Shown here piece after piece: positions 10 through 38,828 of a stretch of 38,828 bases of DNA; position 1 is the first letter of the stretch; each line of letters starts with the position of its first letter. Below the pieces are notes generated by a model. It was not told the origin of the DNA. It did not search any database and was given only the letters and a program-made list of their open reading frames with translations. The stretch is from a virus. The position numbers and the translations under genes were made by a program. The stretch is taken from IMG/VR virus record IMGVR_UViG_3300034102_002172, positions 1-38,828 of that record. One strand, written 5' to 3'.

Positions 10-961
10 CGCCCGGCTCGCCTGTCCGCTTCAAGGGGGTGGGGGTGTTGGCACGCGCAGCATCGGCCTGCCGCATGCGGTAAGCGATGGTCTGCTTGGT
101 GGTCCCGAGTGCGACCGCGATGCGCTGGAGCGTCCAGCCCTCGTCCCGGCGCGCGATGAGCCACTCATCGTCCAGCTTGGCCGACTTCGGACGGCCTGAC
201 GACTTCGGCACCTTGCCTGCCGCGTTGGCCTCCCGCAGCGTCTGCGCTCGCTTGGCGTTAGTCCGCGCACGGCACAGGGCCTCAACCTCGTCCAAGGGCT
301 TCACGGCCGCGATGGCAGCCACGACCTCTGGACGCTTCAGGACCTCGCCGACCCAGTGCTCGGAGTGCGTGACGTGCATCGATATCTCAGCCGTGTTCAT
401 GCCTTGGAGCCTAAGGTCAACCACCTGCTGAACCGTCCGACTAAGCGGCATCGGCTCGGCTGACAGGCTACGCCGTACGATGGCCATCAGCTGCTCTTGC
501 ACTATGGTCCGACCGGGCCGCGCAGTGTACTCCTCAGCCTCGACGAACCGATCCCGACCCTTCCGCGCACGCTTCCGGATGAGGTCGTCCGCGCACGCGG
601 GCGGGTCGTAGTACACGCCCAGCGCCTGCGCTTCTAGCACCACCTCGTCTAGGCCCTCAAGCGCGCCAGGGACGCGATTGGCGACGTCGGTATAGGTCTC
701 GGCCAACTGCCACAGGGCTTGAAGCGCTGCCTCATGCCGAGGCTTAGCACTGGCCCAATCGGCCAGCTTGTGCCCGACTAGGCCTTCAGTCATTGAGCAC
801 GGCACGCCGAGCTCGGCCAGCTGACGAAAGATGCGCCGAACTGGCGCGCCCTTGGACTGGATGAGACGCAGCATCTCACGCCCGACCCCGCGGTTGCGGA
901 GCCACGTGGTCGACCGCTCCTGCTCGCGCTCCCGGCGCAGTATCTTGACTCCGCCTTGCAT
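1..961 (-). CDS. Helix-turn-helix protein, N-terminal 320 codons (gene continues across the window end)
   Basis: The frame opens at ATG 961-959, overlapping the SSB stop as TGATG, and stays open to base 1. If the ends are joined it continues at 38828 or 38819 and stops at TGA 38778-38776, giving about 334 aa. Two DNA-binding-like segments are visible. One is a central stretch around LSRTVQQVVDLRLQGMNTAE. The other is a C-terminal helix-turn-helix with WTLQRIAVALGTTKQTIAYR. The protein is rich in Arg and Lys. Its place between SSB and the small terminase would suit a late-gene regulator or a packaging accessory, but that is inference. I do not recognise a family. That the gene is real is well supported by about 960 open bases, the coupled start and the coupled stop. 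Confidence 0.8.
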   Translation of the reverse strand, partial: MQGGVKILRREREQERSTTWLRNRGVGREMLRLIQSKGAPVRRIFRQLAELGVPCSMTEGLVGHKLADWASAKPRHEAALQALWQLAETYTDVANRVPGALEGLDEVVLEAQALGVYYDPPACADDLIRKRARKGRDRFVEAEEYTARPGRTIVQEQLMAIVRRSLSAEPMPLSRTVQQVVDLRLQGMNTAEISMHVTHSEHWVGEVLKRPEVVAAIAAVKPLDEVEALCRARTNAKRAQTLREANAAGKVPKSSGRPKSAKLDDEWLIARRDEGWTLQRIAVALGTTKQTIAYRMRQADAARANTPTPLKRTGEPGGLP

Positions 962-1335
962 CAGAAGGGCATCTCCCCGCCGCCGCCGCCCGCTGGCATC
1001 TCGCCGCGCTCGGAAGGCATCTTGGCAAGGAACCGGACGTCAGAGGCCACGACCTCAGTGCGCTGGCGCTCGGTGCCATCCTGACCCTGCCACTTGCGTG
1101 TCTTCATTCGCCCGTCGACTAGCACCGGGTCGCCCTTCCGGCAGCGCTCGGCCATAAGCTCCGCAGTGCGGCCGAAGGCCACGATGTAGTGCCACTCCGT
1201 GACGTCAACCCACGCGTCGCCCTGCTTCTCGCGCTCATTGGTGGCCAGTGACACCGAGACCACCGCTCCGCCCGCCTGCGTCCGCTTCAGCTCAGGGTCG
1301 CGGCCTAGCCGCCCCATCAGTATCGCCTTGTTCAT
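961..1335 (-). CDS. ssb: Single-stranded DNA-binding protein
   Basis: The product is a 124-aa OB-fold protein that coats single-stranded DNA during replication and recombination. It starts with the classic SSB N-terminus MNKAILMGRLGRDPELK and continues with the core segments VSVSLATNE, DWVDVTEWH-type and VDGRMKTRKWQ. The tail is glycine-rich and ends GEMPF, a variant of the acidic DDDIPF tip that recruits partner proteins. The start overlaps the preceding stop (ATGA) and the stop overlaps the next start (TGATG), so it is translationally coupled on both sides. It sits in the replication arm with PrimPol-helicase and VRR-NUC, and probably also serves the RecT/exonuclease pathway encoded on the other strand. 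Confidence 0.95.
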   Translation of the reverse strand: MNKAILMGRLGRDPELKRTQAGGAVVSVSLATNEREKQGDAWVDVTEWHYIVAFGRTAELMAERCRKGDPVLVDGRMKTRKWQGQDGTERQRTEVVASDVRFLAKMPSERGEMPAGGGGGEMPF

Positions 1336-4875: not shown

Positions 4876-6410
4876 GTCACCACCTTCCGCGTGAACGTGA
4901 CCCCGGGCAACTGCTCCAGGCACGCCTTCCGCCGCGACCGCCACTGCGACTGGAGCAGCGACATGTTGTCGACGTAGTCGTAGACGACCGGCCGGGCCTT
5001 GCCCGAGCTGGCACGCATGACGCGCCCAATGCGCTGGATAACCCGGTTGCCCGCCCTGCAAGGCGCGACGAGGTGAACGGCGACGAGCTCGGGAAGGTCA
5101 AGGCCCTCGTCGGCGAGCTGGGTCGCAATCAAGACCTTCGCCTCTCCGGCCCTCACACGCGCGAACGCCGCGTCCCGGTCGCGCGTCCGACCTACGACCG
5201 CCACCGCGTCAGGGATGAGCCCTGCAAGGGCCTCAGCGTGCTCCACGCGCGACGTCAAGACCAGCTGCGGGAACGTCCCGTGCTCGGCGACCAGCCGCGC
5301 GATAAGCGCGTTCCTGTCGCCACTATCTGTCAGGTCATTGACGATAGTCGTGAAATCGCCGGACCACGAATGGAACGGCGTCACGACCTCGCAGACCGTC
5401 GGCGCCATCGTCAGCCCGACACGCTGAAGGTCCCGCGCCTGCACCTCGTACCGCTTCGGGCCGAGCCACGCATACATCGCAGGCGTCCAGCCGTCGTCCC
5501 GGTTAGGCGTAGCGGTCAGGCCGTACACGGTATCGCAGACGATGTTGCCGAGCACGGCTTGGAACGTCGACGCCGGCGCGTGGTGCGCCTCGTCGAGGAT
5601 AACCGTCCCAAAGCGCATGCCCGCGAGGTCCCACGGGTCGACCTTGGCCAGCGTCTGGACCGTCGTGATGACCATGCCCTTGACGTTAATCATGGCAGCC
5701 GTTGCGGACTTCACAAACGCGGCCGCGCCGCTCGCGCTGACAGGCGCCATGCCGAGCAACCGCCGCACCCGCTGGTCCCACTGCGTCGCTAGGTCGCGCG
5801 TGTGAACGAGCACCAGCGTAGGGCGCTCCGTCATCGCGAACCGGTGCAGGGCCACGCCCATCTGCGTCTTGCCCGCGCCGCAGGGCGCGACGATAACGCC
5901 AGACCGCCACTTGCCGGCGGCCTTCACCGCTGCCTTCTGGTGGTCCATTAGCCATTCGCAGTCGTTGACCGCGCGTTCATATGCTGGGGGATGGGGGGAA
6001 GGGATCCCGGAACCGGGCTGCTTTCCCACCCTGGTTTCCACCATCCCCCCACATGCTGGGGGATGGGGGGAAGGGATCCCGGAACCGGGCTGCTTTCCCA
6101 CCCTGGTTTCCACCATCCCCCCACATGCTGGGGGATGGGGGGAAGGGATCCCGGAACCGGGCTGCTTTCCCACCCTGGTTTCCACCATCCCCCCACAGTC
6201 GGTTCGCTGGGCTGACCACGCCGCGCCCATCGGCACGACGACGCCTTGCCCCTGACGCTGCCAAAGGTGGACCATCGGCTCGACGTGGCCCGCCCATCGG
6301 ATGATGCCCGCCCGCTTCAGCTTGTCTTGCTTATCCGCCGCCGGGTTCGGGAAGCTAAGCATCGGCTCAAGCTCCCAGAACCTCGACTGATTCACCGCTT
6401 CCCAGCTCAT
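4872..6410 (-). CDS. Superfamily II DEAD/DEAH helicase with a triplicated 24-residue insert
   Basis: The product is a 512-aa DNA helicase or translocase of the RecG/UvsW/Rad25-like SF2 type. The core carries APCGAGKT (175-182), LVLVHTRDLATQWD, ILDEAHH (DEAH 273-276), YGLTATPNR (motif III), LIATQLADEGLDLPE (motif V) and QRIGRVMR (motif VI). Residues 72-143 are three exact copies of a 24-aa unit beginning CGGMVETRVGKQ and ending PHPPA, placed between a short N-terminal domain and the helicase core. The start has GGGAGG upstream. The reading frame survives because the unit is 72 bp. Removing the insert would leave a normal-looking helicase, so the insert is probably a tolerated surface loop. Confidence 0.88.
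   Translation of the reverse strand: MSWEAVNQSRFWELEPMLSFPNPAADKQDKLKRAGIIRWAGHVEPMVHLWQRQGQGVVVPMGAAWSAQRTDCGGMVETRVGKQPGSGIPSPHPPACGGMVETRVGKQPGSGIPSPHPPACGGMVETRVGKQPGSGIPSPHPPAYERAVNDCEWLMDHQKAAVKAAGKWRSGVIVAPCGAGKTQMGVALHRFAMTERPTLVLVHTRDLATQWDQRVRRLLGMAPVSASGAAAFVKSATAAMINVKGMVITTVQTLAKVDPWDLAGMRFGTVILDEAHHAPASTFQAVLGNIVCDTVYGLTATPNRDDGWTPAMYAWLGPKRYEVQARDLQRVGLTMAPTVCEVVTPFHSWSGDFTTIVNDLTDSGDRNALIARLVAEHGTFPQLVLTSRVEHAEALAGLIPDAVAVVGRTRDRDAAFARVRAGEAKVLIATQLADEGLDLPELVAVHLVAPCRAGNRVIQRIGRVMRASSGKARPVVYDYVDNMSLLQSQWRSRRKACLEQLPGVTFTRKVVT
5981..6196. repeat. Three perfect 72-bp tandem repeats within the helicase gene
   Basis: Copies start at 5981, 6053 and 6125 and are identical base for base. 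Each unit is itself structured. GGGGGATGG near one end pairs with CCATCCCCC near the other (9 bp), and the centre holds CCCGG-AA-CCGGG, so one unit can fold into a long hairpin. The unit length is a multiple of 3, so all frames through it stay open. It resembles a palindromic repetitive element expanded in frame. An assembly or slippage artefact cannot be excluded. Confidence 0.95.
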
Positions 6411-6784: not shown

Positions 6785-6927
6785 GTGTGTCTGCCTCCGA
6801 AGGCGATAAAGCGCTGCCGGCCTTACGATGTCAACAGAAAAAAACGACCTGTCGCCGTTTCATGCGTTGACATCGGCAACGCTCCGTGTCTTACATCGCA
6901 ACAGGCAACCCGCCGAAGGAGACACAC
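6785..6927. promoter_or_regulatory. Divergent early promoter and operator region
   Basis: CGATGTCAAC at 6826-6835 and GTTGACATCG at 6866-6875 form a perfect 10-bp inverted repeat. Each arm contains a TTGACA -35 box pointing outward. Rightward: TTGACA 6867-6872, then 18 bp, then TTACAT 6891-6896, leading to recT. Leftward: TTGACA (plus 6829-6834), then 17-18 bp to a TTTATC-like -10 near 6805-6810, leading to the winged-helix gene. A run of seven A lies at 6838-6844. The symmetrical arms could bind a dimeric regulator over both -35 boxes. Confidence 0.65.
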
Positions 6928-7713
6928 ATGACATCAAAGCTTCCAGCCGCTCAGTTCCGGGACGACGTCAGTCATCTCGCCACTGAGTTTCTTACTCAGA
7001 TAGTCCCGGCCGAACGCGTCGCAGAGGCGACCGGACGTCTCGCCTTGGCACTGCGCCAAGTCGCAGTCGCGAACCCGAAAATCTACGAGTGCGACCGGGC
7101 CTCAATCGCGCAGGCCGTGGCCATGAGCGCCTTGACCGGCCTTCAGCCCGGAGGCGTCAAGCCCGACGTCTACCTAATCCCGCGAGGTCGCCAGCTCCAA
7201 TGGCAGGTGTCCGCCCGCGGCCTTCAGAAGCTTGCCGCCCGCGCGGGGTGGGTCCGCATGGTCGCGCAGGTGGTCCACCTCGAGGACGAGTATCGCGTCG
7301 TCCTTGGCTCCGACGACCGTATCGAGCACGTGCCCTGCGGCAAGTACCCGACCAGCCTTGACGAGGTCCGGGCCGTCTACGTCGTAGGCCAGCACCGCGA
7401 CGGCTTCAAGGTGTGCGTGGACGTGCCCATGGGGGCTATCGTCGCGCGCAAGAAGAAGAGCCAGAGCGGCAACGTCTGGGCCGAATGGCCACTTGAGATG
7501 GCCCAGAAGACAGCCGTGACCTACGCCATCAGCCGAGGCCACTTTGGAGCGCTTGAGGACCAGTCTGACCTTGGCCTCGTCAACCAGCATGAGGCCAACA
7601 GCTACGAGAACCGGCAGCCCGAGCGGGCCGCGCTGACCCATCACACGGTTGATACCGCCAGCGTCCTCGACAGCCTGCCCGCCCTGCCCGTGTCGCTGGA
7701 GGTGGAGCCGTGA
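6928..7713 (+). CDS. recT: RecT-family single-strand annealing recombinase
   Basis: The product is a 261-aa annealing protein that pairs complementary single strands made by the partner exonuclease. Family features are the ALTGLQPGGVKPDVYLIP stretch, QLQWQVSARGLQKLAARAGW, and the conserved MAQKTAVTYAISR near the C-terminal core. The start at 6928 is chosen because AAGGAG lies 6-7 nt upstream; an upstream in-frame ATG at 6886 falls on the promoter -10 and has no ribosome site. It is the first gene of the rightward arm. Its exonuclease partner is encoded four genes later at 9883, making a complete RecE/RecT-type system. Confidence 0.93.
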   Translation: MTSKLPAAQFRDDVSHLATEFLTQIVPAERVAEATGRLALALRQVAVANPKIYECDRASIAQAVAMSALTGLQPGGVKPDVYLIPRGRQLQWQVSARGLQKLAARAGWVRMVAQVVHLEDEYRVVLGSDDRIEHVPCGKYPTSLDEVRAVYVVGQHRDGFKVCVDVPMGAIVARKKKSQSGNVWAEWPLEMAQKTAVTYAISRGHFGALEDQSDLGLVNQHEANSYENRQPERAALTHHTVDTASVLDSLPALPVSLEVEP

Positions 7714-8114
7714 ACGCCATCACGCTCTCGCTCTCGATGCCCGACCGGGCCGCGCTCGGTCGCATCACGCAAAACATCCGGGACGTGGCCACGGACATCG
7801 TTGACAGCACGACCGAGCCCGAGGCCATCGCCTTCGCCAAGCTGTGCCGCTTCGCCCTGCGCTGGCTTGACGCTTCCACGGCCGCAGTCGAGCGCACGTT
7901 TGAGGTCGACTTTGACAGCGACGACCGTGCCGCGCTGACGGTCTGCGAGCCCTACCTGCGCAAGCTCGCCGCGCGCGAGTGGCATCCGTCCGACTGGAAG
8001 AAAGGCGAGCTCGCCGACTGGAAGGTCATGTGGTCGCTCATGCTCGGCCTGCACGACGACATAGCCGAGGCCGAAGAGCTCGAGGCCGGCGACGACAACA
8101 GGAGGCCGATATGA
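7710..8114 (+). CDS. Unknown acidic protein in the recombination operon
   Basis: The product is 134 aa, starting at GTG 7710, which overlaps the recT stop and has GGAGG upstream. It is predicted mostly helical, acidic toward the C-terminus (EEAEELEAGDD-like end), with a Trp-rich patch around EWHPSDWKKGELADWK. No signal peptide or membrane segment is seen and no family is recognised. Cotranscription with recT suggests a recombination or nucleotide-metabolism accessory, but nothing in the sequence proves it. Confidence 0.75.
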   Translation: MNAITLSLSMPDRAALGRITQNIRDVATDIVDSTTEPEAIAFAKLCRFALRWLDASTAAVERTFEVDFDSDDRAALTVCEPYLRKLAAREWHPSDWKKGELADWKVMWSLMLGLHDDIAEAEELEAGDDNRRPI

Positions 8115-8509
8115 GCAAGCGCGATGCCGAGGCTCGAGAGCGTTGGAACGCCAGAGGCCACGAGATGCTGGACTATCTCGAGCAGCTCGAGCCGAATCAG
8201 CGCCCGATGCCGCTGACGGCTTGGGGCGATATCTGGGGATGTAACTCTAACTACATTAACTACGGTTTCAAGCACTACATCCCAGAGGTCGGACGCCTTT
8301 ACACCGACCTTCGAGAGCAGTGGTGGAGCAACTTGGCCGCCGACGTCGCTGCCTTCTACACGCCAGGGAGACGCTGCGTTGACCGCAGGGCGTTGGCTCT
8401 GAAGTACCACACGCCAGAGGACCTAATGAAAAGCATCATCGACAACTTGCTGAGGCGGCGTCGAGATGACTTCGTCAGGATAGCGGAGGCACGCCATGGC
8501 CAAGCGTAA
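8111..8509 (+). CDS. Unknown protein in the recombination operon
   Basis: The product is 132 aa. The start at 8111 has GGAGG 5-6 nt upstream and overlaps the previous stop (ATGA); the frame extends further upstream, but only inside the neighbour. The sequence starts with a charged helix (MSKRDAEARERWNARGHEML), is rich in Trp and Tyr in the middle (AWGDIWGCNSNYINYGFKHY), and ends in a basic patch around LLRRRRDDF. No family is recognised. It overlaps the next gene by 14 bp. Confidence 0.7.
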   Translation: MSKRDAEARERWNARGHEMLDYLEQLEPNQRPMPLTAWGDIWGCNSNYINYGFKHYIPEVGRLYTDLREQWWSNLAADVAAFYTPGRRCVDRRALALKYHTPEDLMKSIIDNLLRRRRDDFVRIAEARHGQA

Positions 8510-9017
8510 GCAGACCGCAGACGTCCCGCCCGATGTGCTCGAAGCCATCCGCCAAACCGACGGCGACTGGTACGCGCTGACCATGTACTCGGCGAAGCCA
8601 GAGGAAAAAGGCGAAGACAGCAGCCCGCCGACGCGCTGCCGAATCGAAGTGTATGCGCCGACCGGTCGCTGGTGGGCGCCGTACAAGCTGGACATGCGCG
8701 AGCACGAGGTCAACTGGTCAGCGCTAGTCATGAACTTGCCGCCGCAGGTCGAGGACATCGTCGGCAAGACCACGTCGGTGATGCGCGCTCATTGGCGCAT
8801 CTTGGCCATGACCTGCATTGACGCGATGTACAACGAACAGGTCGAGCTGCACGAGGACCTGATGCAGGCGTTGCGAGGTCAGGCCGGCAACATCCACGAC
8901 ATCGCAACAGTGGCTGAGACAGCTGACCCAGCAGAGCACCCGCGCGCTTACGCGTGGCACGTCGTCTGCAAGTGGCTCGGCGGCTTGAACGCAGCACACC
9001 ACGGAGGGAAGGGATGA
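8496..9017 (+). CDS. Unknown protein upstream of thyX
   Basis: The product is 173 aa, with a start supported by GGAGG at about 8485-8489. The N-terminus is basic (MAKRKQTADV), the middle holds aromatic stretches such as DGDWYALTMYS and TGRWWAPYKLD, and the C-terminal half is helical. No membrane segment, metal-binding cluster or nucleotide-binding loop is visible. Its stop overlaps the thyX start (ATGA), so the two are translationally coupled. Function unknown. Confidence 0.7.
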   Translation: MAKRKQTADVPPDVLEAIRQTDGDWYALTMYSAKPEEKGEDSSPPTRCRIEVYAPTGRWWAPYKLDMREHEVNWSALVMNLPPQVEDIVGKTTSVMRAHWRILAMTCIDAMYNEQVELHEDLMQALRGQAGNIHDIATVAETADPAEHPRAYAWHVVCKWLGGLNAAHHGGKG

Positions 9018-9886
9018 GCGCTATAACCGCAACCGTCGTCGCAGACACGACATGGGAAGACCGCCGGCTCTTGACCATCGTCTGCGATTACCCACGCTTC
9101 ATCCACCCGCAGGTCATGAGCTACGGGATGTTGCGCAAGTCGACGTCGTCGAGCCGGGCTATACCCGTCAAGCGTCAGCTCGAGCTATCCCAGGACGAGC
9201 CATTCATCCCGGCAGCCTTGACGAAGAATCAGCCGGGCATGGGTGCCGAGGCTCGGCTTTCGCCCGAGGAACAGGAGGAAGCGGCTAGCATCATCCGCAG
9301 CCTTTACGACTTGACCCGGCACCGCGTGCACCTGCTCGAGCTGCTTGGCGTCCATAAGCAGCACGCCAACCGCTACCTTGAGCCGTGGTTGATGACGCGC
9401 TGCACCATTACCGGCGCCGTCGAGGCATGGCAACACCTGCTAGCCCAGCGCGCCGGTCCGTCTGCGCACGTGGAGGTCCAGCCCGAAATGTTTGAACTGG
9501 CCTGCCGCGTTCGCGACGCCATGATTGCAAGCCAGCCCGTCGAGCGCCAGTGGCACGTGCCTTACTGCCAAGACCGCGAGCCGACGTATCAAGACGTCCT
9601 GTATGCCATCGCACGCGCCGCCCGCGACAGCTACCGCCGCGACGACGTCAGCCCTGACTTTATGGGCCGGCTCGAGAAGCTAGCCGCTGAAGGTCACCTC
9701 GGGCCGTTTGAGCACGTCGCGTGGTACGACACAGACGCGCCCGGCTTGGCCGTCGGTCCCTACGTCTTGCCGTCCGCCTGTGACGGCGACGACCTAGCCG
9801 ACGAGATGCTCTTGAACGGCTGGCGCTCGGCTCGCCACCTTGGCCTTGACGTGGTGCGCCAGCTGCTATGGGAGGACGGACGATGA
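9014..9886 (+). CDS. thyX: Flavin-dependent thymidylate synthase
   Basis: The product is a 290-aa ThyX, which makes dTMP from dUMP with FAD, NADPH and methylene-tetrahydrofolate and so supplies thymidine for phage DNA. Signatures are RKSTSSSRAIPVKR (a form of the SASSRAIP stretch), GVHKQHANRYLEPW (the phage version of the ThyX motif region), EAWQHLLAQRAGPSAHVEVQ with the conserved Arg and acidic residues, and GPFEHVAWYDT near the C-terminus. The length is normal. The ATG at 9014 overlaps the upstream stop and follows GGAGGGAAGG. It is placed directly before the exonuclease, which starts inside its stop codon. Confidence 0.92.
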   Translation: MSAITATVVADTTWEDRRLLTIVCDYPRFIHPQVMSYGMLRKSTSSSRAIPVKRQLELSQDEPFIPAALTKNQPGMGAEARLSPEEQEEAASIIRSLYDLTRHRVHLLELLGVHKQHANRYLEPWLMTRCTITGAVEAWQHLLAQRAGPSAHVEVQPEMFELACRVRDAMIASQPVERQWHVPYCQDREPTYQDVLYAIARAARDSYRRDDVSPDFMGRLEKLAAEGHLGPFEHVAWYDTDAPGLAVGPYVLPSACDGDDLADEMLLNGWRSARHLGLDVVRQLLWEDGR

Positions 9887-10782
9887 ACCCACATGACATC
9901 ACGATTGGGGCCAGCGACGTCCCTGGCATCCTTGGCCTGTCGCCTTGGCAGTCACCATCAGCGGTATGGGCTAGGCTGAAGGGTCTGACCCAGAGCCAGC
10001 CCAGCGACGCGACGCGCCGTGGTCACACGCTCGAGCTCGGTATCCTGATGGAGTACGCCGATCGGCACGGCCTAAAGGCCTACCGCTGGCAGACGTCGCA
10101 CCGCCACCTGCACCGTCAGCGTCCGCCCTACCGCGCGGGTCTGTACCGTGGTCCGGGCATCGACCAAGGTCGGATGATTCACCCGGCGTTCCCGTGGGCC
10201 GGCTGCCGTCCTGACGCCATCGTCCTGCAAGAGGACGGCACGAGGCACCTCGTCGAGGTGAAGACGACGCGCTCGTTCCGCGACTGGCAGGACGCTGACG
10301 GAAACCCCATCCTGCCGCCTCACTACGTCGTGCAAGTTCAGTGGCAGATGATGGTTACCGGTACCGACGTCACGCACCTTGAAGCCTTCTGCACCTTCGA
10401 CGACAGCCGCCGGTCATACACGGTCGAGCATGACCACGCGCTTGCTTCCCGCGTCTGGGACTTGGTCAGTGCGTGGCGCCTCCGCCACATCATCGGCGAC
10501 GAGCTGCCGACGGACATGACGTCCGACATCGCCGGCTTGGTCTGGCCGAAGCCGGCCGAGCCTGAGACGTGGCTTGAGCCGAGCGCTGAGGACCTCGTCA
10601 TTGGGTCGACGTACGCGCGCCTGTCGTCCGACATCAAGCGCCTGACGGCCGAGCGCGAGAGGTGCAAGGACAAGCTGACCGTGCGCATCAAGGACGCGAC
10701 GGGCATCACCGGCGTTGCCAGTTGGAAGGCAACCAGCCGCGGCCGGACGTTCCGTTGCCTCGTCGAGGGCTCCGAGCCCTAA
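9883..10782 (+). CDS. YqaJ-type (lambda exonuclease-like) recombination exonuclease
   Basis: The product is a 299-aa exonuclease expected to resect double-stranded ends and hand single strands to RecT. It has the YqaJ start ITIGASDVPGILGLSPWQS, then RGHTLELGILMEY with Glu51. The PD-(D/E)XK core is GCRPDAIVL (Asp111) and LVEVKTTRSF (Glu125, Lys127), followed by the Gln-rich VVQVQWQMMVTG helix. The C-terminus has a charged helix likely for oligomerisation. The start at 9883 has GGGAGG upstream and overlaps the thyX stop. It pairs with RecT at 6928, although the two are separated by four genes. Confidence 0.9.
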   Translation: MNPHDITIGASDVPGILGLSPWQSPSAVWARLKGLTQSQPSDATRRGHTLELGILMEYADRHGLKAYRWQTSHRHLHRQRPPYRAGLYRGPGIDQGRMIHPAFPWAGCRPDAIVLQEDGTRHLVEVKTTRSFRDWQDADGNPILPPHYVVQVQWQMMVTGTDVTHLEAFCTFDDSRRSYTVEHDHALASRVWDLVSAWRLRHIIGDELPTDMTSDIAGLVWPKPAEPETWLEPSAEDLVIGSTYARLSSDIKRLTAERERCKDKLTVRIKDATGITGVASWKATSRGRTFRCLVEGSEP

Positions 10783-10893: not shown

Positions 10894-11415
10894 ATGGATG
10901 CGACAGAACCAGCCACCTACGAAGAGCGCGCCGCCATCGTGCAAGCTCTTGACGCCTGCCCTGGCGAAGGCCCCGACGTCGACCTGTTCGGGCTGCTCGG
11001 GCTGATACGCCTAGAGCGCAAGCTCGGCGTTGACGCGTACCGTCCGCGCTTGCTTGTCGCTACGTGGTGCATCGAGGCCAGCATGCGCCACGGTCCGCTT
11101 TACGGCGACCACCGGAAGGGCAAGGCCATGGCGCTCGGACCATTCCAGCTTTGGTCCGGACATCGTCGAGCGTGCGGCTTGTCTGACAGCGACGCCCAAG
11201 ACCTTGAAGCCGCAGCACGGTGCTACGCCGCGCGCATCCTGCGGGTCCTACCTCGGGCCGCCGCGAAGTGTCCGGACGCGCCAGAGCGCACGGCAGAGGC
11301 CGCTGTCGCCAACATCGCGCGCTACCGGTGGAGCTGCTCGGCTGCGTCCAAGCACTGGCTGCTAGCCGAGCGCATGACGGGAGGTAAGAGCGAGGACGGA
11401 GCGAGGTCGAAGTGA
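10894..11415 (+). CDS. Putative lysozyme/transglycosylase-like protein
   Basis: The product is 173 aa. The segment VATWCIEASMRHGPLYGD followed by KAMALGPFQL resembles the soluble lytic transglycosylase fold: a catalytic Glu (Glu61) in a helix, then a GPFQL motif (82-86) in place of GLMQ. It would cleave the glycan strand of peptidoglycan. AGGAG lies 7 nt before the ATG at 10894. No signal peptide is seen, and it is outside the late lysis cassette, in the early rightward arm. The small membrane peptide that follows overlaps its stop and could be its partner. The assignment rests on short motifs only. Confidence 0.5.
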   Translation: MDATEPATYEERAAIVQALDACPGEGPDVDLFGLLGLIRLERKLGVDAYRPRLLVATWCIEASMRHGPLYGDHRKGKAMALGPFQLWSGHRRACGLSDSDAQDLEAAARCYAARILRVLPRAAAKCPDAPERTAEAAVANIARYRWSCSAASKHWLLAERMTGGKSEDGARSK

Positions 11416-18353: not shown

Positions 18354-21143
18354 TCAGATGATAGTGACTTTGACGAGGTTGCCGTCAAGGAACGGAGCGC
18401 CGCAGAACAGGCCGGCCTCGCTGACGCATGTGACGTTCGCTAGCCCGGTCACGGTGCCGCCGACCTCAAAGAGCTCGTAGACACCATCGGTCGCGTAAAG
18501 CTCGCCGTCAAGATAGAGCGTCGTCGCGCCGCTGAAGGTCAAGTCGCCGTCGACGAACTGCTTGCCGTTGGTCGGATTGCTCTTCAACTTGGCGACGACG
18601 TGCGACTTGTGCGGTTTGTCCTGGACAACCTCAACGAATGAAAGCGCAAGGTCAGACGCGTCGACTGTCAGGTATGCGTCAAGGTCCGCCTGCCCGCCAG
18701 GGAAGCTGCCATACTGAAACAGCACGTAGTTTCCGCCGATTGGGTACACGCTCTCGTCAAGGTAGACAGTCGTCGCGCCGGTGAAGTCAAGCGCCCCGTC
18801 GACGTACTGCGCGCCCTCGTAGCTGTCGCCCATGAGCGACCACGACCACGAGCCGCCAGCGAGCTGCATGTCGGGCCCGGCCCAGCTGGCCGCGACAAGC
18901 GTCGTGATAGTGAATGTGCCAGCGTCAAGGGCCATGTCCGGGCCGGTCCACGATGCCGAGTCGCGCGCGCTGAACGTGCCCGCGTCAAGCTGCATGTTCG
19001 GACCGGTCCAGCCAGCCGCTTCGTCCGCCGTAAACGTGCCGCCGTCGAGCTGCATGTCCGGGCCCTGCCACGCGACGACGCGCTGCGCCGTGAACGTGCC
19101 GCCGTCAAGCTGCATGTCGGGCCCGACGTAGTCCGCAGATTCGGTTGCCGACCACGTACCGCCAGCGAGGGCGAGGTCCGGGCCGATGTAGTCAGCCGAC
19201 TCCGACGCGCCAAAGGTCCCGCCGTCAAGCGCCACGTCCGGGCCCGACCACGTGGCCACGTAGGCCGCGCTGAACGTGCCCGCATCAAGGGCCATGTCCG
19301 GGCCTTCCCAGTAGACGCCGAGGCGCGTGGCAAAGGTGCCGCCGTCAAGCGCGATGTCTGGCCCTTCCCACGTGCCGACCTCGTTGGCCGTGAACGTGCC
19401 GGCGTCAAGCGCAAGCTCGGGGCCGCTCCAGAGCTGCACCTCGCGGGCGTCAAACGTCCCGCCGTCAAGCGCCATGTCCGGCCCGACGTAGTCCGCCAGC
19501 TCGAGCGCGCTGAACGTGCCGCCGTCAAGGGCAACGTCGGGTCCGATGTAATCCGCCGACGCTGACGCCGTGAACGTTCCGCCGTCAAGTGCGAGGTCCG
19601 GGCCCTGCCAGTAAACGCCGACGCGCGCGACGAACGTCCCGCCGTCAAGCGCCATGTCGGGGCCAACGTAGTCCGCGAGTTCGAGCGCCGTGAACGTGCC
19701 CGCGTTGAGGTCCATCGCAGCGCCCGGCCAGTCGACGTCTTCGTTGGCCGTGAAGTAGCCCGGGTCAAGGTCGAGCGCTGGGCCGATGTAGTCGACGCTC
19801 GCAAGCGCCGTGAACGTCCCGCCGTCAAGTGCGAGGTCCGGACCGGACCAGATGCCGACCTCCTGCGCCGCGAACGTGCCTGCATCGAGGGCCATGTCGG
19901 GGCCAGCGTAGTCGGCGAAGCCAGCCGCCGCGAACGTGCCAGCGTCCAGCGCCATGTCGGGGCCCTGCCACGCAGCTTGCTCTTGACCGGACCACGTGCC
20001 GCCGTCGAGCGCGAAGTCTGGCCCGACGTAGTCCGCCGACTCGAGAGCCGTCCAGGTACCGCCGTCAATCGCGATGTCAGGCCCGACCCACCGGAACTCG
20101 CCCGATGCGGTGAACGTGCCAGCGTCAAGGTTGACCTCGGGCCCAGCGTAGTCCACGACCGCCAGCGCCGTGACGCTGCCAGCGTCAAGCGCCACGTCGG
20201 GCCCGACGTAGTCCGCCGACTCAAACGCTGCCCATGCGCCCGCATCAAGGGCCATGTCCGGGCCCTGCCAATAGGCTGTCTCGGCTCCCTGCCATTCGCC
20301 CGGGTCAAGCGACATGTCCGAGCCGGCGTAGTCGGCGACGCCGATGGCCGTGAAGTCGCCCGCGTATGCCAGCAGCTCCGGGCCTTCCCACCGCGCAATC
20401 TCGGTCACGCTGTAGGTGCCGCCGTCAAGGTCGAGCGCCGGGCCAGCGTAGTCTACAGCGCCCGAGGCTGCGAACGTCCCGCCGTCAAAGGCCACGTCGG
20501 GCCCAATCCAGGAGGCACTTTCAAACGCGGTGAACGTCCCGCCGTCAAGGGCCATGTCCGGGCCCTGCCAGAGCGCTGCCTCTGAGGCGAACCACGTGCC
20601 ACCGTCAAGCGCGAGCTCGGGCCCGATGTAGCTGACAGCCGCCAGCGCCGTGAAGGCCCCGCCCTCGAGCGCCAGCGATGGCCCTTCCCACGATGCCTCT
20701 TCGTTCACTGACCACGCGCCAGGCTCGAGCTGCATCTCGGGGCCGGTGTAGCTCACAGCCCCGCTGACGGTGAACGTGCCGCCGTCTAGCGCCACGTCTG
20801 GCCCGAGGTAGTCCGCCTGCGTGATGGCCTCAAAGGTGCCGCCGTCAAGCGCCATCTCCGGGCCGGTGTAGCTGACGGTCGCGAACGCGCTGAACGTGCC
20901 AGCGTCGAGCGTCAGTTCCGCTCCGGTGTAGTCCGCCGACATGGCCGCGCTAAAGCTGCCGCCGTCGAGGTCAAGCGCCGGGCCTTCCCATGACGCTTCC
21001 TCGTTGACAGACCACGTCCCGCCAGCGAGCAGCATGGCAGGGCCAATCCAGTCCACGAAGACGGGAGGCTTTGGACGCCTGCCGCCTTGGCTGTAGTACT
21101 GCTGCCAGTGCTCTTGATAGAGCTTGCGTGGCTGCGTCGGCAT
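18354..21143 (-). CDS. Giant repeat protein of about 37 twenty-residue units, probable tail surface protein
   Basis: The product is 929 aa. After about 31 residues (MPTQPRKLYQEHWQQYYSQ start), residues 32 to about 768 are successive 20-residue units starting with Trp or Tyr and centred on GPDMALDGGTF. All but one keep the 20-residue period (one has 22). Two similar C-terminal modules follow, each with DGxLxFxGATTxYLD. The strict period, alternating small and hydrophobic residues and Asp-Gly turns suggest a beta-solenoid or stacked sheet. Placed between tail-tip genes and the adhesin, it is probably a long tail-fibre shaft or virion surface protein. I do not recognise the repeat family. Confidence 0.7.
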   Translation of the reverse strand: MPTQPRKLYQEHWQQYYSQGGRRPKPPVFVDWIGPAMLLAGGTWSVNEEASWEGPALDLDGGSFSAAMSADYTGAELTLDAGTFSAFATVSYTGPEMALDGGTFEAITQADYLGPDVALDGGTFTVSGAVSYTGPEMQLEPGAWSVNEEASWEGPSLALEGGAFTALAAVSYIGPELALDGGTWFASEAALWQGPDMALDGGTFTAFESASWIGPDVAFDGGTFAASGAVDYAGPALDLDGGTYSVTEIARWEGPELLAYAGDFTAIGVADYAGSDMSLDPGEWQGAETAYWQGPDMALDAGAWAAFESADYVGPDVALDAGSVTALAVVDYAGPEVNLDAGTFTASGEFRWVGPDIAIDGGTWTALESADYVGPDFALDGGTWSGQEQAAWQGPDMALDAGTFAAAGFADYAGPDMALDAGTFAAQEVGIWSGPDLALDGGTFTALASVDYIGPALDLDPGYFTANEDVDWPGAAMDLNAGTFTALELADYVGPDMALDGGTFVARVGVYWQGPDLALDGGTFTASASADYIGPDVALDGGTFSALELADYVGPDMALDGGTFDAREVQLWSGPELALDAGTFTANEVGTWEGPDIALDGGTFATRLGVYWEGPDMALDAGTFSAAYVATWSGPDVALDGGTFGASESADYIGPDLALAGGTWSATESADYVGPDMQLDGGTFTAQRVVAWQGPDMQLDGGTFTADEAAGWTGPNMQLDAGTFSARDSASWTGPDMALDAGTFTITTLVAASWAGPDMQLAGGSWSWSLMGDSYEGAQYVDGALDFTGATTVYLDESVYPIGGNYVLFQYGSFPGGQADLDAYLTVDASDLALSFVEVVQDKPHKSHVVAKLKSNPTNGKQFVDGDLTFSGATTLYLDGELYATDGVYELFEVGGTVTGLANVTCVSEAGLFCGAPFLDGNLVKVTII
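18840..21050. repeat. About 37 degenerate 60-bp coding repeats
   Basis: The 60-bp period encodes the 20-residue units of the 929-aa protein. Units share wording such as the codons for GPDMALDGGTF but differ enough at many positions that this is an old, diversified array rather than a recent expansion. Adjacent copies are not identical, in contrast to the perfect 72-bp repeats in the helicase gene. Confidence 0.9.
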
Positions 21144-34792: not shown

Positions 34793-35446
34793 TCAACCTC
34801 CCAACAACCGCGAGGACCGACGGGCTGCACTGCGCGCCCGACGTGCCACCCGACCCGCTTCGACCTGCTCGCCGATGCGCTTGGCGAACTCGTCGTCGAT
34901 GTCCGCCTTGATGGCCTCGACAAAGGCCGCGCGCTCCGGCTCGTTGTATTGCAGGACGCTGACGCGCTCGTTTCGACCGGCGAGGTAGGCGACAGAAGCT
35001 TGCGGGTTGCCCTTGCCGCGCGACCCGTAGAAGCTAATCTTGACCCGGTTGACAGCCATGGCGCGAACGCCGAGCGAGGCCCAAAGACGCCCGGTCTTGT
35101 CCCAGTCGCGACGCTTGCCGTTCGGCAGCAGCTCCAAGTATCGCCCGTAGTTCTCGTAGACGACCCAGCCTTGCCACTGGCCCTGTTGCACCTTGCGTTC
35201 ATAGCCAGCCGGCTGCGGTTGTCCAGGCGCAACCCACCAGCGATTCTTGTCGTCCTTGCTCCGCCCGGTCGTCGAGTACTCGCCAAGCGGCGTCCACTGG
35301 CCACCCGTCGGCGAGACGCCGTTGCGCACGCGCGTCTTGATGGCGTTGGCCAGCACCACGGCCGCGTCACGCAGCGGCACAATCAGCCGGGCCGACAACT
35401 CGTCGAGCCGGTTGAAGCCTTTGAGCTGGATGTCATAGCCCAACAT
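34793..35446 (-). CDS. Phage morphogenesis protein, gpG/HK97 gp10-like
   Basis: The product is 217 aa from ATG 35446, supported by GAGG 7 nt upstream; a longer frame to 35488 overlaps the portal gene by 56 bp and is less likely. Typical wording of the family: IQLKGFNRLDELSARLIVPL, then AIKTRVRNGVSPTGGQWTPLG, and KTGRLWASLGVR. These proteins take part in head completion or head-tail joining. The C-terminus is very basic (RRARSAARRSSR). Confidence 0.7.
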   Translation of the reverse strand: MLGYDIQLKGFNRLDELSARLIVPLRDAAVVLANAIKTRVRNGVSPTGGQWTPLGEYSTTGRSKDDKNRWWVAPGQPQPAGYERKVQQGQWQGWVVYENYGRYLELLPNGKRRDWDKTGRLWASLGVRAMAVNRVKISFYGSRGKGNPQASVAYLAGRNERVSVLQYNEPERAAFVEAIKADIDDEFAKRIGEQVEAGRVARRARSAARRSSRLLGG

Positions 35447-36839
35447 CTGCGACCTCAACCGATTCGCCTTGAACGGGTTGCTGCTCAACCGCCGGCGCGC
35501 TCAGCGGCTCAAGACGCGCGTCCATCTCGGCATCGGCCATCATGCGCTGAAGTGCCTCGTCGACGCTGATGCCGTCCATCTTCGCGCGCGCGCGAACCTT
35601 GCCGATGAGGCCGAGCGTCTGCTGAAGCTCCAACGCCTGCGCATCGTGAAGCGGGTCCGCAGGCATGACGGGCTCCCGGAACTCAAGCTGCACCTTCGCG
35701 GGCGGCAGGACCTCGACGCCACGCACGGCGTTGACGTAGCTTGCAACGAGGTCGTAGCAGCGTTGCTCGCCACGCTCGAGCTCGTCGAGATACTTCTGGC
35801 GCTCGGTGTCGCGGTCAATCTGCTCCATCTTCTTCGCGAGCGCCGTGATGCCCGCCGACTTTAAGAACGTCGCCGGGTTCATTCCCTGGGCGCTGATGAC
35901 CGCGCGCATGTATTGCTCATTCGTTGTCGCGTAGCCGGCGAGGTCCGGCTGCGGGCGCGCGAAGTCGAGACGCGCGGCAGGGTCGCCGAACGCCGCCAGC
36001 GTCTCCGGACCGGTGTCCATGTTCTCGGCCTCGCCTGCGCTGACGCCAGACACGAACATCTGCGAGTAGCCCTGAAGCCGCGCGATGTGCCCGAGGTCCG
36101 TCATGTCGTGGTTGATGGCCCGCTGCGCATCCAGCAAGTCGTCTGGCGCGAAACACCACCACGCACCACTGACGGTGTCGTCGCCACGCATGCACACGAC
36201 CGGGATGCGGCCAAACGGGTTGACCCCGCCGAACGGAGGCGGCATTTCCGCCGCGAACTCCTCCATCCACGTGATGGCCTGCGCGGTGAATCGCGCCGTC
36301 GCGTATCGCACGCCGCCAAGGTCCGGGTCTTGCTCGATAGGCACCAGCAAGCGCCACGCGCTGACCTCGTCTTCGCTTTGCGCCATCGGGTCCGTCAGTT
36401 CAACCGCTTGGTCGTGCGGAGGCATCGTCACGACCCGCAGGCTCGAGCCGTGCGGCAGGCACCAGACCGTCGACTGGTTCAGCGTCACGAGCTGCCCATA
36501 GGCCGACTGCATCGCCTTATCAACGCCGGCCTCGGTGTAGATAAGCTCGATAGTACGCGTCACCGCTTCCGGCAGCGGAGCGCCAGTCACCGGGTCAACG
36601 AACGACCGCGTGCGCTTCATGCTCGCCATCTCGCGCGCGTTGCGCCAGATGAACGGTACTACGCGCTGAACGTGCTTCGTCCACGTCTTGGGATAGAGGC
36701 GCTGACGCTGGCGCCGGCTGTCCTCCATGTTGCGGTGGAGGTACTCCCACAGGATGCGCATCTTGTCGCGCCACTGCTGCGACCCGGGCCCGTCGGTCAG
36801 GTATCGCCAGCCGCCATTCAGTTGCAGTGCCAGACTCAT
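35433..36839 (-). CDS. Portal protein
   Basis: The product is 468 aa with GAGG upstream of the ATG. Portal features: a helical N-terminal region (MEDSRRQRQRLYPKTWTKHV), the wing with beta strands (SSLRVVTMPPHDQAVELTD, IPVVCMRGDDT), a long helical stem with DDLLDAQRAINHDMTDLGHI, and a C-terminal crown with coiled parts. It forms the dodecameric ring for DNA passage and for terminase docking. It directly follows the large terminase with 7 bp between them, and overlaps the morphogenesis gene by 14 bp. Confidence 0.85.
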   Translation of the reverse strand: MSLALQLNGGWRYLTDGPGSQQWRDKMRILWEYLHRNMEDSRRQRQRLYPKTWTKHVQRVVPFIWRNAREMASMKRTRSFVDPVTGAPLPEAVTRTIELIYTEAGVDKAMQSAYGQLVTLNQSTVWCLPHGSSLRVVTMPPHDQAVELTDPMAQSEDEVSAWRLLVPIEQDPDLGGVRYATARFTAQAITWMEEFAAEMPPPFGGVNPFGRIPVVCMRGDDTVSGAWWCFAPDDLLDAQRAINHDMTDLGHIARLQGYSQMFVSGVSAGEAENMDTGPETLAAFGDPAARLDFARPQPDLAGYATTNEQYMRAVISAQGMNPATFLKSAGITALAKKMEQIDRDTERQKYLDELERGEQRCYDLVASYVNAVRGVEVLPPAKVQLEFREPVMPADPLHDAQALELQQTLGLIGKVRARAKMDGISVDEALQRMMADAEMDARLEPLSAPAVEQQPVQGESVEVADVGL

Positions 36840-36846
36840 GCGCGCC

Positions 36847-38355
36847 TCACAGGTGCTTGCGGCTTAGGGTGTACGCCGTCGAGTGGCGCGAGTGTACCAT
36901 GACCTGATGCATCCGCAAAGCATCAGCCCCGTGGTCAAAGACGTTGTCCTTGTGGGGGATGTTCGTGATGACCCCGAACATGTCCTGCTTGTAACGGTAG
37001 TTCTGCATGCAGGACACGATACCGCGCCGCTCCTCCGTCTTGCCGAGGTGCCTCGCGAAGAGCAGCTGCGGGGCCCGGTCGACAGGGTCAAGCATGTCGC
37101 GCACGAGCTCGATACCTTCCGCGACAGACTGCTCGAGTCGGCTGTTCATACGGTGGACCTGCGACTTCGGGAACTGCTCGAGCGCCCATTGAATCTCGCG
37201 CTTTACCGCTCGGTCACAAACAATGTGCGACGGCTCGCGCTTTAACCGCTGGCATCGCATCACGACCTCTTCGTGTAGCTTGCCCATCGGGATGTTGTCC
37301 GGGCACAGCTCATCGAAGACGATGCATCGGCCTTGAGCGTCGCGCGCAATCCACAGGACGTGAGGATACTGGTCGCCGGCGTCGTACGCTAGGTCGTACT
37401 CCATCCCGTTCGGGAACCGGTTGAACTCAACGAGATGCCGCGAGTCCTCGAACTCCGCCCAGATGATGGACTCGGGACGCAGAATCTCGGCCAGCACCTC
37501 TTGCCGCCAGCGCCGCGCGCTGTAGTGGACCTTCAGGCCGTCGAGGTAGTTGGCCGGCAAGTGCGGGTTATCAAGCGCAGTGTTGCGCCACCAGCCCCAA
37601 CGCATCAACTCCTTCCGACGCTCAACCTCGTCCTCGATGCCGTGCGCCTTGATGCGCGCTTCATGAAACTTGGCGACCACGCCGCGCAGGCCGTTCGGAG
37701 TCGTCGTCCCAAATATCTGCCGCCAGCGTGAGCCAGGACGACGGATGCGCCCGTCGACTGTGTCCCAAATCTCAAGCGACCGCGGCACCGTCTCGATCTC
37801 GTCCATCCATGCGGTCGAGAACTCGAAGCCAAGCAGGTTGGCGATCTTTGCGTACGTCCGGGCAAACACCTTGCCGCCACAGACTAGCGTCTGTTCCTTC
37901 GCAGCCTTGTGCCACTTGCCCGAAGCTAGAGGGTAGCCGGCCTGCTCAAGCTCTTCAACGTACCTATGCCAGTGCGGTAGGTTCACATTTGAGACTTGGT
38001 CGTGCGTCGGGCCGCTGAGCATGTGCCAGCCACCCGGGTTGGCGATGACGCCCATGACGAATTCGGCACCAGCCCACGCCGTCTTGCCCGCCCCAATGCC
38101 GCCAAGGTGCAGCTTCTGCGTCTTCGGCGAGGTCCACCGCCCCTTGCCCGCGTCCCACTCCGGCAGCGACAGACCGGCAGCGTGCGCCGCCATCATGTGC
38201 GGCATCGGTCGATAGCTGGTCACGGAGCAGAAGAACTTGAGCAGCGCTTCCCGGTCCTGACTAAGGACCTCGCGCAGTTCGCGCCATCCGCGCATCTTGA
38301 TGCTAGCCGCTGCCCGTCGCGCGCTCTTGCGCTCAGCTGACGATGTTGTCGTCAC
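36847..38355 (-). CDS. Terminase large subunit
   Basis: The product is 502 aa from GTG 38355, overlapping the small subunit by 23 bp. ATPase part: GGIGAGKT (85-92) as Walker A, FSTAWMDEIE (Walker B, Asp185 and Glu186), IFGTTTPNG as coupling motif. Nuclease part: LAYDAGDQYPHVLWIA with the first Asp, HIVCDRA with the second, and FDHGADALR with the third, the RNase H-like triad. It pumps DNA into the head and cuts it. Location next to the 9-bp terminal repeat fits cos-type cutting. Confidence 0.9.
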   Translation of the reverse strand: MTTTSSAERKSARRAAASIKMRGWRELREVLSQDREALLKFFCSVTSYRPMPHMMAAHAAGLSLPEWDAGKGRWTSPKTQKLHLGGIGAGKTAWAGAEFVMGVIANPGGWHMLSGPTHDQVSNVNLPHWHRYVEELEQAGYPLASGKWHKAAKEQTLVCGGKVFARTYAKIANLLGFEFSTAWMDEIETVPRSLEIWDTVDGRIRRPGSRWRQIFGTTTPNGLRGVVAKFHEARIKAHGIEDEVERRKELMRWGWWRNTALDNPHLPANYLDGLKVHYSARRWRQEVLAEILRPESIIWAEFEDSRHLVEFNRFPNGMEYDLAYDAGDQYPHVLWIARDAQGRCIVFDELCPDNIPMGKLHEEVVMRCQRLKREPSHIVCDRAVKREIQWALEQFPKSQVHRMNSRLEQSVAEGIELVRDMLDPVDRAPQLLFARHLGKTEERRGIVSCMQNYRYKQDMFGVITNIPHKDNVFDHGADALRMHQVMVHSRHSTAYTLSRKHL

Positions 38356-38779
38356 CGGTCACCCGCTCGCCGAAGGGTAGAGGTATCTGCAACCCGACCG
38401 GAACCTGCACGAGCTGGTTGTCCGCGCTTGCGTTAGCGCCAAAGCGCTCGGCCATCAGGCGCAAGTGACGCAGCTGCGCCGCCGCCAGCTTCTCCCAGGC
38501 CAGCAACTTGCCCTCGTCGGTCTCGAGCGACATGCCGGTCAACAGCGTCCGGACGCGAAGACAGTCCGCGGCCTGTAGCATCATGACCGTCTGGATGTTC
38601 AGCGCGTTGTCGTCGAACAGCGACTCGACCGCTCGCACCACGTTGGACGGGTAGTACTCGCGGAAGACGTGCCAGCCAAACGGGATCGACGACTCGCGCG
38701 CTTCCGCCGTGTCGCGTCCGACGTGCGTTTGCGTCCGATGTGACGGGCGCGGCGCCTTTTCCGATGGTTTCCCAGTCAT
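38333..38779 (-). CDS. Probable terminase small subunit
   Basis: The product is 148 aa, start overlapping the HTH gene stop (ATGA). N-terminus is basic and disordered (KPSEKAPRPSHRTQTH), the middle is helical (YPSNVVRAVESLFDDNALNI, DEGKLLAWEKLAAAQLRHLR), and the end is a short beta-like tail. No strong motif, but placement directly before the large subunit with overlap, and next to the genome end, is that of TerS, which recognises the packaging site. Confidence 0.7.
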   Translation of the reverse strand: MTGKPSEKAPRPSHRTQTHVGRDTAEARESSIPFGWHVFREYYPSNVVRAVESLFDDNALNIQTVMMLQAADCLRVRTLLTGMSLETDEGKLLAWEKLAAAQLRHLRLMAERFGANASADNQLVQVPVGLQIPLPFGERVTGDDNIVS

Positions 38780-38828
38780 TTCAACACCTTTTCAGGGGCC
38801 CCGCCCTCCAAAAACCGGAGGGGCAAGC
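38776..38828 (-). CDS. C-terminal end of the helix-turn-helix gene that begins at 961
   Basis: Read on the minus strand from the window end, this stretch continues the frame of the gene at 1-961 whether or not the 9-base terminal duplication is removed, because 9 is a multiple of 3. It encodes a tail ending GGAPEKVLK and stops at TGA 38778-38776. That stop overlaps the small terminase start as ATGA, the same coupling seen throughout this strand. This is direct evidence that the two window ends are adjacent in the replicating or packaged molecule. Confidence 0.75.
   Translation of the reverse strand, partial: LPLRFLEGGAPEKVLK
38820..38828. repeat. Terminal 9-bp direct repeat, right copy (possible cohesive end)
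   Basis: This is identical to bases 1-9. It overlaps the right arm of a 6-bp inverted repeat with an A-rich loop (38804-38822). Just upstream is the palindrome GGGGCCCC. The location next to the small terminase gene fits a terminase recognition and cleavage region, but no experimental sign of cutting can be read from sequence alone. Confidence 0.6.

Follow-up and report, generated by a model that had tools for sequence, protein, structure and literature searches.

The cohesive ends of phage lambda are 12 nt long and those of P2 are 19 nt, and annealing and sealing of such ends after injection is standard cos biology. In D3 the ends are 3′ overhangs. The same is true of HK97 (PMC5557969), in which the minimal TerS-binding site comprises bases 15–29 from the cut and is partly read via an A-tract (PMC10370121). 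Library end repair fills in 5′ overhangs and removes 3′ overhangs; in 5′-cos phages both contig ends carry the same terminal sequence after fill-in, and assemblers place cos ends at the contig limits (PMC5557969, the PhageTerm paper). For tailed phages, the reported terminal repeats measure 131 bp or more, and no reported cohesive end exceeds 19 nt (PMC5557969).

The DNA analysed here, referred to as the window, spans an entire 38,828-bp IMG/VR record (IMGVR_UViG_3300034102_002172), classed there as 'linear'. The original prediction stated that bases 1–9 equal bases 38820–38828, and comparison of the two ends bore this out: both read GGGGCAAGC, a sequence with no other copy in the window on either strand. 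Nine bp is the longest overlap between the window ends, and a 9-nt overlap is expected by chance with a probability of approximately 1e-5. A T7-like direct terminal repeat, which would be a duplex of at least ~130 bp, was therefore not found. The shared 9 nt fall within the range of short complementary ends (4–19 nt) and are compatible with a filled-in 5′ overhang, whose single-strandedness in the virion we infer.

The right-hand 9-mer lies 41–49 bp upstream of the start of terS, as had been predicted, and is followed by the genes for the large terminase and portal protein. The 148-aa product of the gene assigned to terS (38333–38779, minus strand) had no PHROG, Pfam or NCBIfam match in profile searches, and its AlphaFold model was poor (pLDDT 50); it is probably the small terminase, judging from its position before terL (36847–38355, minus strand; phrog_2, Terminase_6N) and the annotated portal gene (35433–36839, minus strand). 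At the left end of the window, an open reading frame that starts at 961 on the minus strand remains open as far as that end. Its codons 1–320 (2–961) include two HTH regions, at approximately aa 174–210 and 253–301. When the window ends are joined via one copy of the 9-mer, the gene continues into 38776–38828, which supplies the 9-mer codons, the last 13 codons and a TGA, making a gene of 334 codons (334 aa). The TGA, at 38776–38778, overlaps the terS ATG at 38779 (ATGA). However, nine bases make three whole codons, and the frame is kept whether the join holds no copy of the 9-mer, one copy or two. Frame alone is therefore weak evidence and does not establish a one-copy join. Thus the predicted run-off of the HTH gene and its junction with a stop overlapping the terS start were both found, but the argument that the ends join in frame could not by itself fix the copy number, which came instead from a related contig described below.

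The SSB gene (961–1335, minus strand) has a stop that overlaps the HTH start and belongs to the same operon through the site. As SSB, HTH, terS, terL and portal genes all lie on the minus strand, with stop/start overlaps at SSB/HTH and HTH/terS, this gene order suggests that transcription probably passes through cos. No match to a sigma-70-type promoter or to a terminator was found in 36500–38828.

Few relatives of the window were found among viral contigs. Three are considered in detail: L002 (3300044845_000428), L003 (3300044616_000782) and L006 (3300032220_000857), whose independence is presumed from their different dataset numbers. L003 is ~75% identical to the window in DNA sequence and 89% identical in TerL. 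Its last nine bases, on the terS side, are the same 9-mer (9/9 matches), and this is the sole copy in L003. L006, whose HTH protein is 98% identical to that of the window, stops on the HTH arm, one base past the 9-mer. Its terminal positions 10956–10965 read GCTTGCCCCC, and the extra C beyond the 9-mer matches L003, not the T of the window; the additional base may mean that the end is 10 nt long or that the assembly overshot. Each of these end coincidences has a chance probability of ~1e-4 to 2e-4. These were the only two relatives with contig ends at the homologous site, one exactly and one 1 nt off, so that, as judged from the assemblies, the window, L003 and L006 share a fixed end. Contigs L004 and L015 end elsewhere, like random fragments. 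A further left-end pattern match, in L035, was rejected as an unrelated contig matching by chance. As a negative control we used 80 lambda-type contigs, which are probably integrated prophages; none of the 80 ended at cos, the closest end being 118 nt away.

Some of these contigs also differ from the window in gene content close to the site. A DNA methyltransferase gene is present between terS and terL in L003 (533–1498, phrog_363) and in L004 (~349–1044), and is absent from the window and L002. In L003 1–160 the HTH frame extends ~35 codons beyond the terS start with no stop there, and the gene end beyond cos is therefore variable.

L002, whose terminase proteins are very similar to those of the window (TerL 98% and TerS 95% identical), spans the join. 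Its HTH gene is continuous there, with the frame intact and single-copy spacing: the L002 peptide GEPGGLP-SPNFRDGAP aligns with GEPGGLP-LRFLEGGAP of the joined window at equal spacing. The spacing therefore fits one copy of the 9-mer and not two, as would be expected of a circularised form with a single cos. The 9-mer itself is conserved at only 4/9 positions in L002. Over EPGGLP there are four synonymous changes (GGC to GGT twice, TTG to CTA, and CCC to CCT) and no amino-acid changes, and the peptide up to the cut is therefore under coding constraint. Either the overhang sequence is not strictly needed by this terminase, or another overhang is used in L002.

The window is likely to comprise the whole linear genome carried in the virion of a tailed phage, packaged by a cos mechanism with a 9-nt 5′ overhang. 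This reading is based on the terminal pattern, which is that described for PhageTerm (PMC5557969), and on the finding that fixed ends at one homologous site overlap by 9 nt, as filled-in 5′ ends would. The original prediction had left the choice between a circular genome and cohesive ends. Cohesive ends fit much better, given the coincident ends of L003 and L006, an overlap shorter than any assembler k-mer, and the continuity of the gene in L002. Weighing against the cos reading are the 4/9 match of the 9-mer in L002 despite its very similar terminases, the extra base in L006, the small number of relatives (two) with ends at the site, and a TerL that falls outside the branches of known cos phages.

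A circularly permuted headful (pac) phage, with a circular assembly that happened to be opened here and a 9-nt overlap left over from assembly, appears unlikely. It would account for the assembly of L002 across the site, and it would agree with the nearest relatives of the window TerL, which are LS06-2018-MD06, HJTV-4, DMCA and Jersey, not the classic cos phages; Jersey, the nearest of them that is characterised, is a headful phage. The TerL phylogeny that was suggested with the original prediction did place the protein away from lambda, P2, HK97 and D3, but with long branches and weak support, and we dropped the tree as an assignment of packaging class, TerL being too divergent. If the circle had been opened at random, however, L003 and L006 would not stop again at the homologous base, and the overlap left by a circular assembly has the length of the k-mer, not 9 nt. 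The ends recurred at one site instead of being permuted without a fixed terminus, and the absence of ends at cos in the lambda-type control indicates that assemblies of uncut DNA do not break there unaided.

The contig ends could also mark a spot that is hard to assemble, such as a hairpin or a GC-rich tract, and not physical DNA ends. Beside the join there is indeed an inverted repeat, as well as a stretch of very high GC content, and the contigs of similar phages could break at one hard spot. Such a spot would be expected to leave a gap or an overlap of k length, yet exactly 9 nt are common to the ends; moreover, L003 has the same end with a different and weaker inverted repeat, and L002 was assembled through the site without trouble. 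We regard this explanation as very unlikely. In sequence alone, filled-in overhangs would look the same as genuine duplex terminal repeats of 9 bp, or as the product of a different fixed-end mechanism lacking 5′ overhangs. Repeats so short would lie far below the range reported for tailed phages and within that of cohesive ends (PMC5557969), and the spacing at the L002 join is that of a single copy. This last possibility is extremely improbable.

The sequence beside the cut was compared between the window, L002 and L003. The 6-bp inverted repeat noted in the original prediction is present at 38804–38822, as CCCTCC and GGAGGG (minus strand) separated by the seven bases GGTTTTT, with the A/T tract at 38810–38814. 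A conserved hairpin was not found at the site, since the inverted repeats there differ in register among the relatives. The block CGGGGCCCC (38795–38803, minus strand), 16 nt past the 9-mer, is identical in all three sequences. The 16-nt spacers between it and the 9-mer share just 7–8 of their 16 bases, and each has an A/T tract of 5–6 nt at offsets 4–10. Four A/T bases at that offset occur at 0.8% of window positions, and the three sequences, being homologous, are not independent observations. The block and A/T tract together lie 5–25 nt from the cut, as compared with 15–29 bp for the TerS site of HK97 (PMC10370121), and this resemblance suggests that they form a candidate TerS-binding (cosB-like) element.

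With a cos site of this kind, packaging would proceed as follows. CGGGGCCCC, 16 nt inside the terS arm, and the A/T tract of the spacer would be bound by TerS and would position the cut. Terminase would make a staggered cut 41–49 bp upstream of terS, leaving 9-nt 5′ single-stranded ends (GGGGCAAGC and GCTTGCCCC), which end repair during library preparation would fill in to place the 9-mer at both contig ends. Once injected, the DNA would circularise by annealing and ligation of these ends, and the HTH gene would regain its last 13 codons from the other arm. Ring closure would also join the SSB-HTH-terS-terL-portal operon, so that on DNA in circular or concatemeric form it could be read across cos.

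The cut separates just the last 13 codons from the rest of the HTH gene, and both HTH motifs precede it; with so short a tail affected, the functional cost of cutting within the gene is small. In the AlphaFold model of the HTH protein only aa 171–250 were modest to good. A fold search gave no significant match, no isolates or plasmids carrying the HTH or terS protein were found by search, and no prophages were found in genome contigs. It is conceivable, though decidedly unlikely, that the HTH protein is a split TerS-like subunit acting in recognition of packaging DNA, the gene of which is itself cut, so that virion DNA encodes a version with no stop and circularisation is needed before the complete protein can be produced. 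Packaging or late functions would then be linked to ring closure.

Other features of the genome were recorded away from the ends. Within the helicase gene, a 72-bp sequence occurs three times in perfect tandem (5981–6197), each copy being 24 codons long with the frame kept; the array is open in several other frames as well. L002 lacks ~200 bp at this position, and the array therefore looks recently expanded. A 929-aa probable tail protein (18354–21143) consists of repeats of ~20 residues (GPDMALDGGTFTA and so on), and its gene has 60-bp periodic DNA repeats that match at only ~63–75%. A block encoding a RecT-like annealing protein and a RecE-like exonuclease (6886–10782, plus strand) is divergent from the main minus-strand operon; incidental inspection brought no integrase to notice.

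True ends have thus probably been obtained for an uncultured phage group with no close isolate, and where the ends of related metagenome contigs coincide, they can reveal a packaging site even when reads are not used. The window resembles lambda-type 5′ cos phages in its fixed ends, its presumed short 5′ overhang and an operon that would be read across cos after circularisation, and, as in lambda, the site adjoins the small terminase gene. It differs from lambda and P2 in its putative 9-nt overhang, in a cut inside the end of the upstream HTH gene, and in a TerL that is not recognisably close to theirs. The distance from cos to terS (41–49 bp) is similar to those of HK97 (50) and D3 (37). In these two phages, however, the upstream HNH genes stop 319 nt (HK97) and 177 nt (D3) before the end and cos is intergenic, whereas in the window the cut falls within the neighbouring gene, the HTH gene. 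In the lambda and P2 annotations no gene reaches the left end, the only end inspected there. The description of the in-gene cut as unusual in the original prediction is made plausible by the lack of a gene reaching the inspected end or ends in 4/4 annotated cos phages. It is unproven as a general statement, since a literature search of partial coverage found neither a published precedent for cos inside a gene nor a survey.

Packaging sites inside genes are already known for headful phages, such as P22, whose pac is 4–25 within gene 3. The window shares with P22 a packaging site inside a coding gene and differs from it in having fixed ends, P22 being a headful phage with permuted ends. The in-gene cut is a small, testable twist, in which one relative keeps the amino acids encoded by the last codons ahead of the cut although its overhang DNA has changed. 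Most likely, therefore, the window belongs to a new uncultured phage group that packages its DNA in an ordinary way, apart from the mild variation of a cut placed within the end of a gene.
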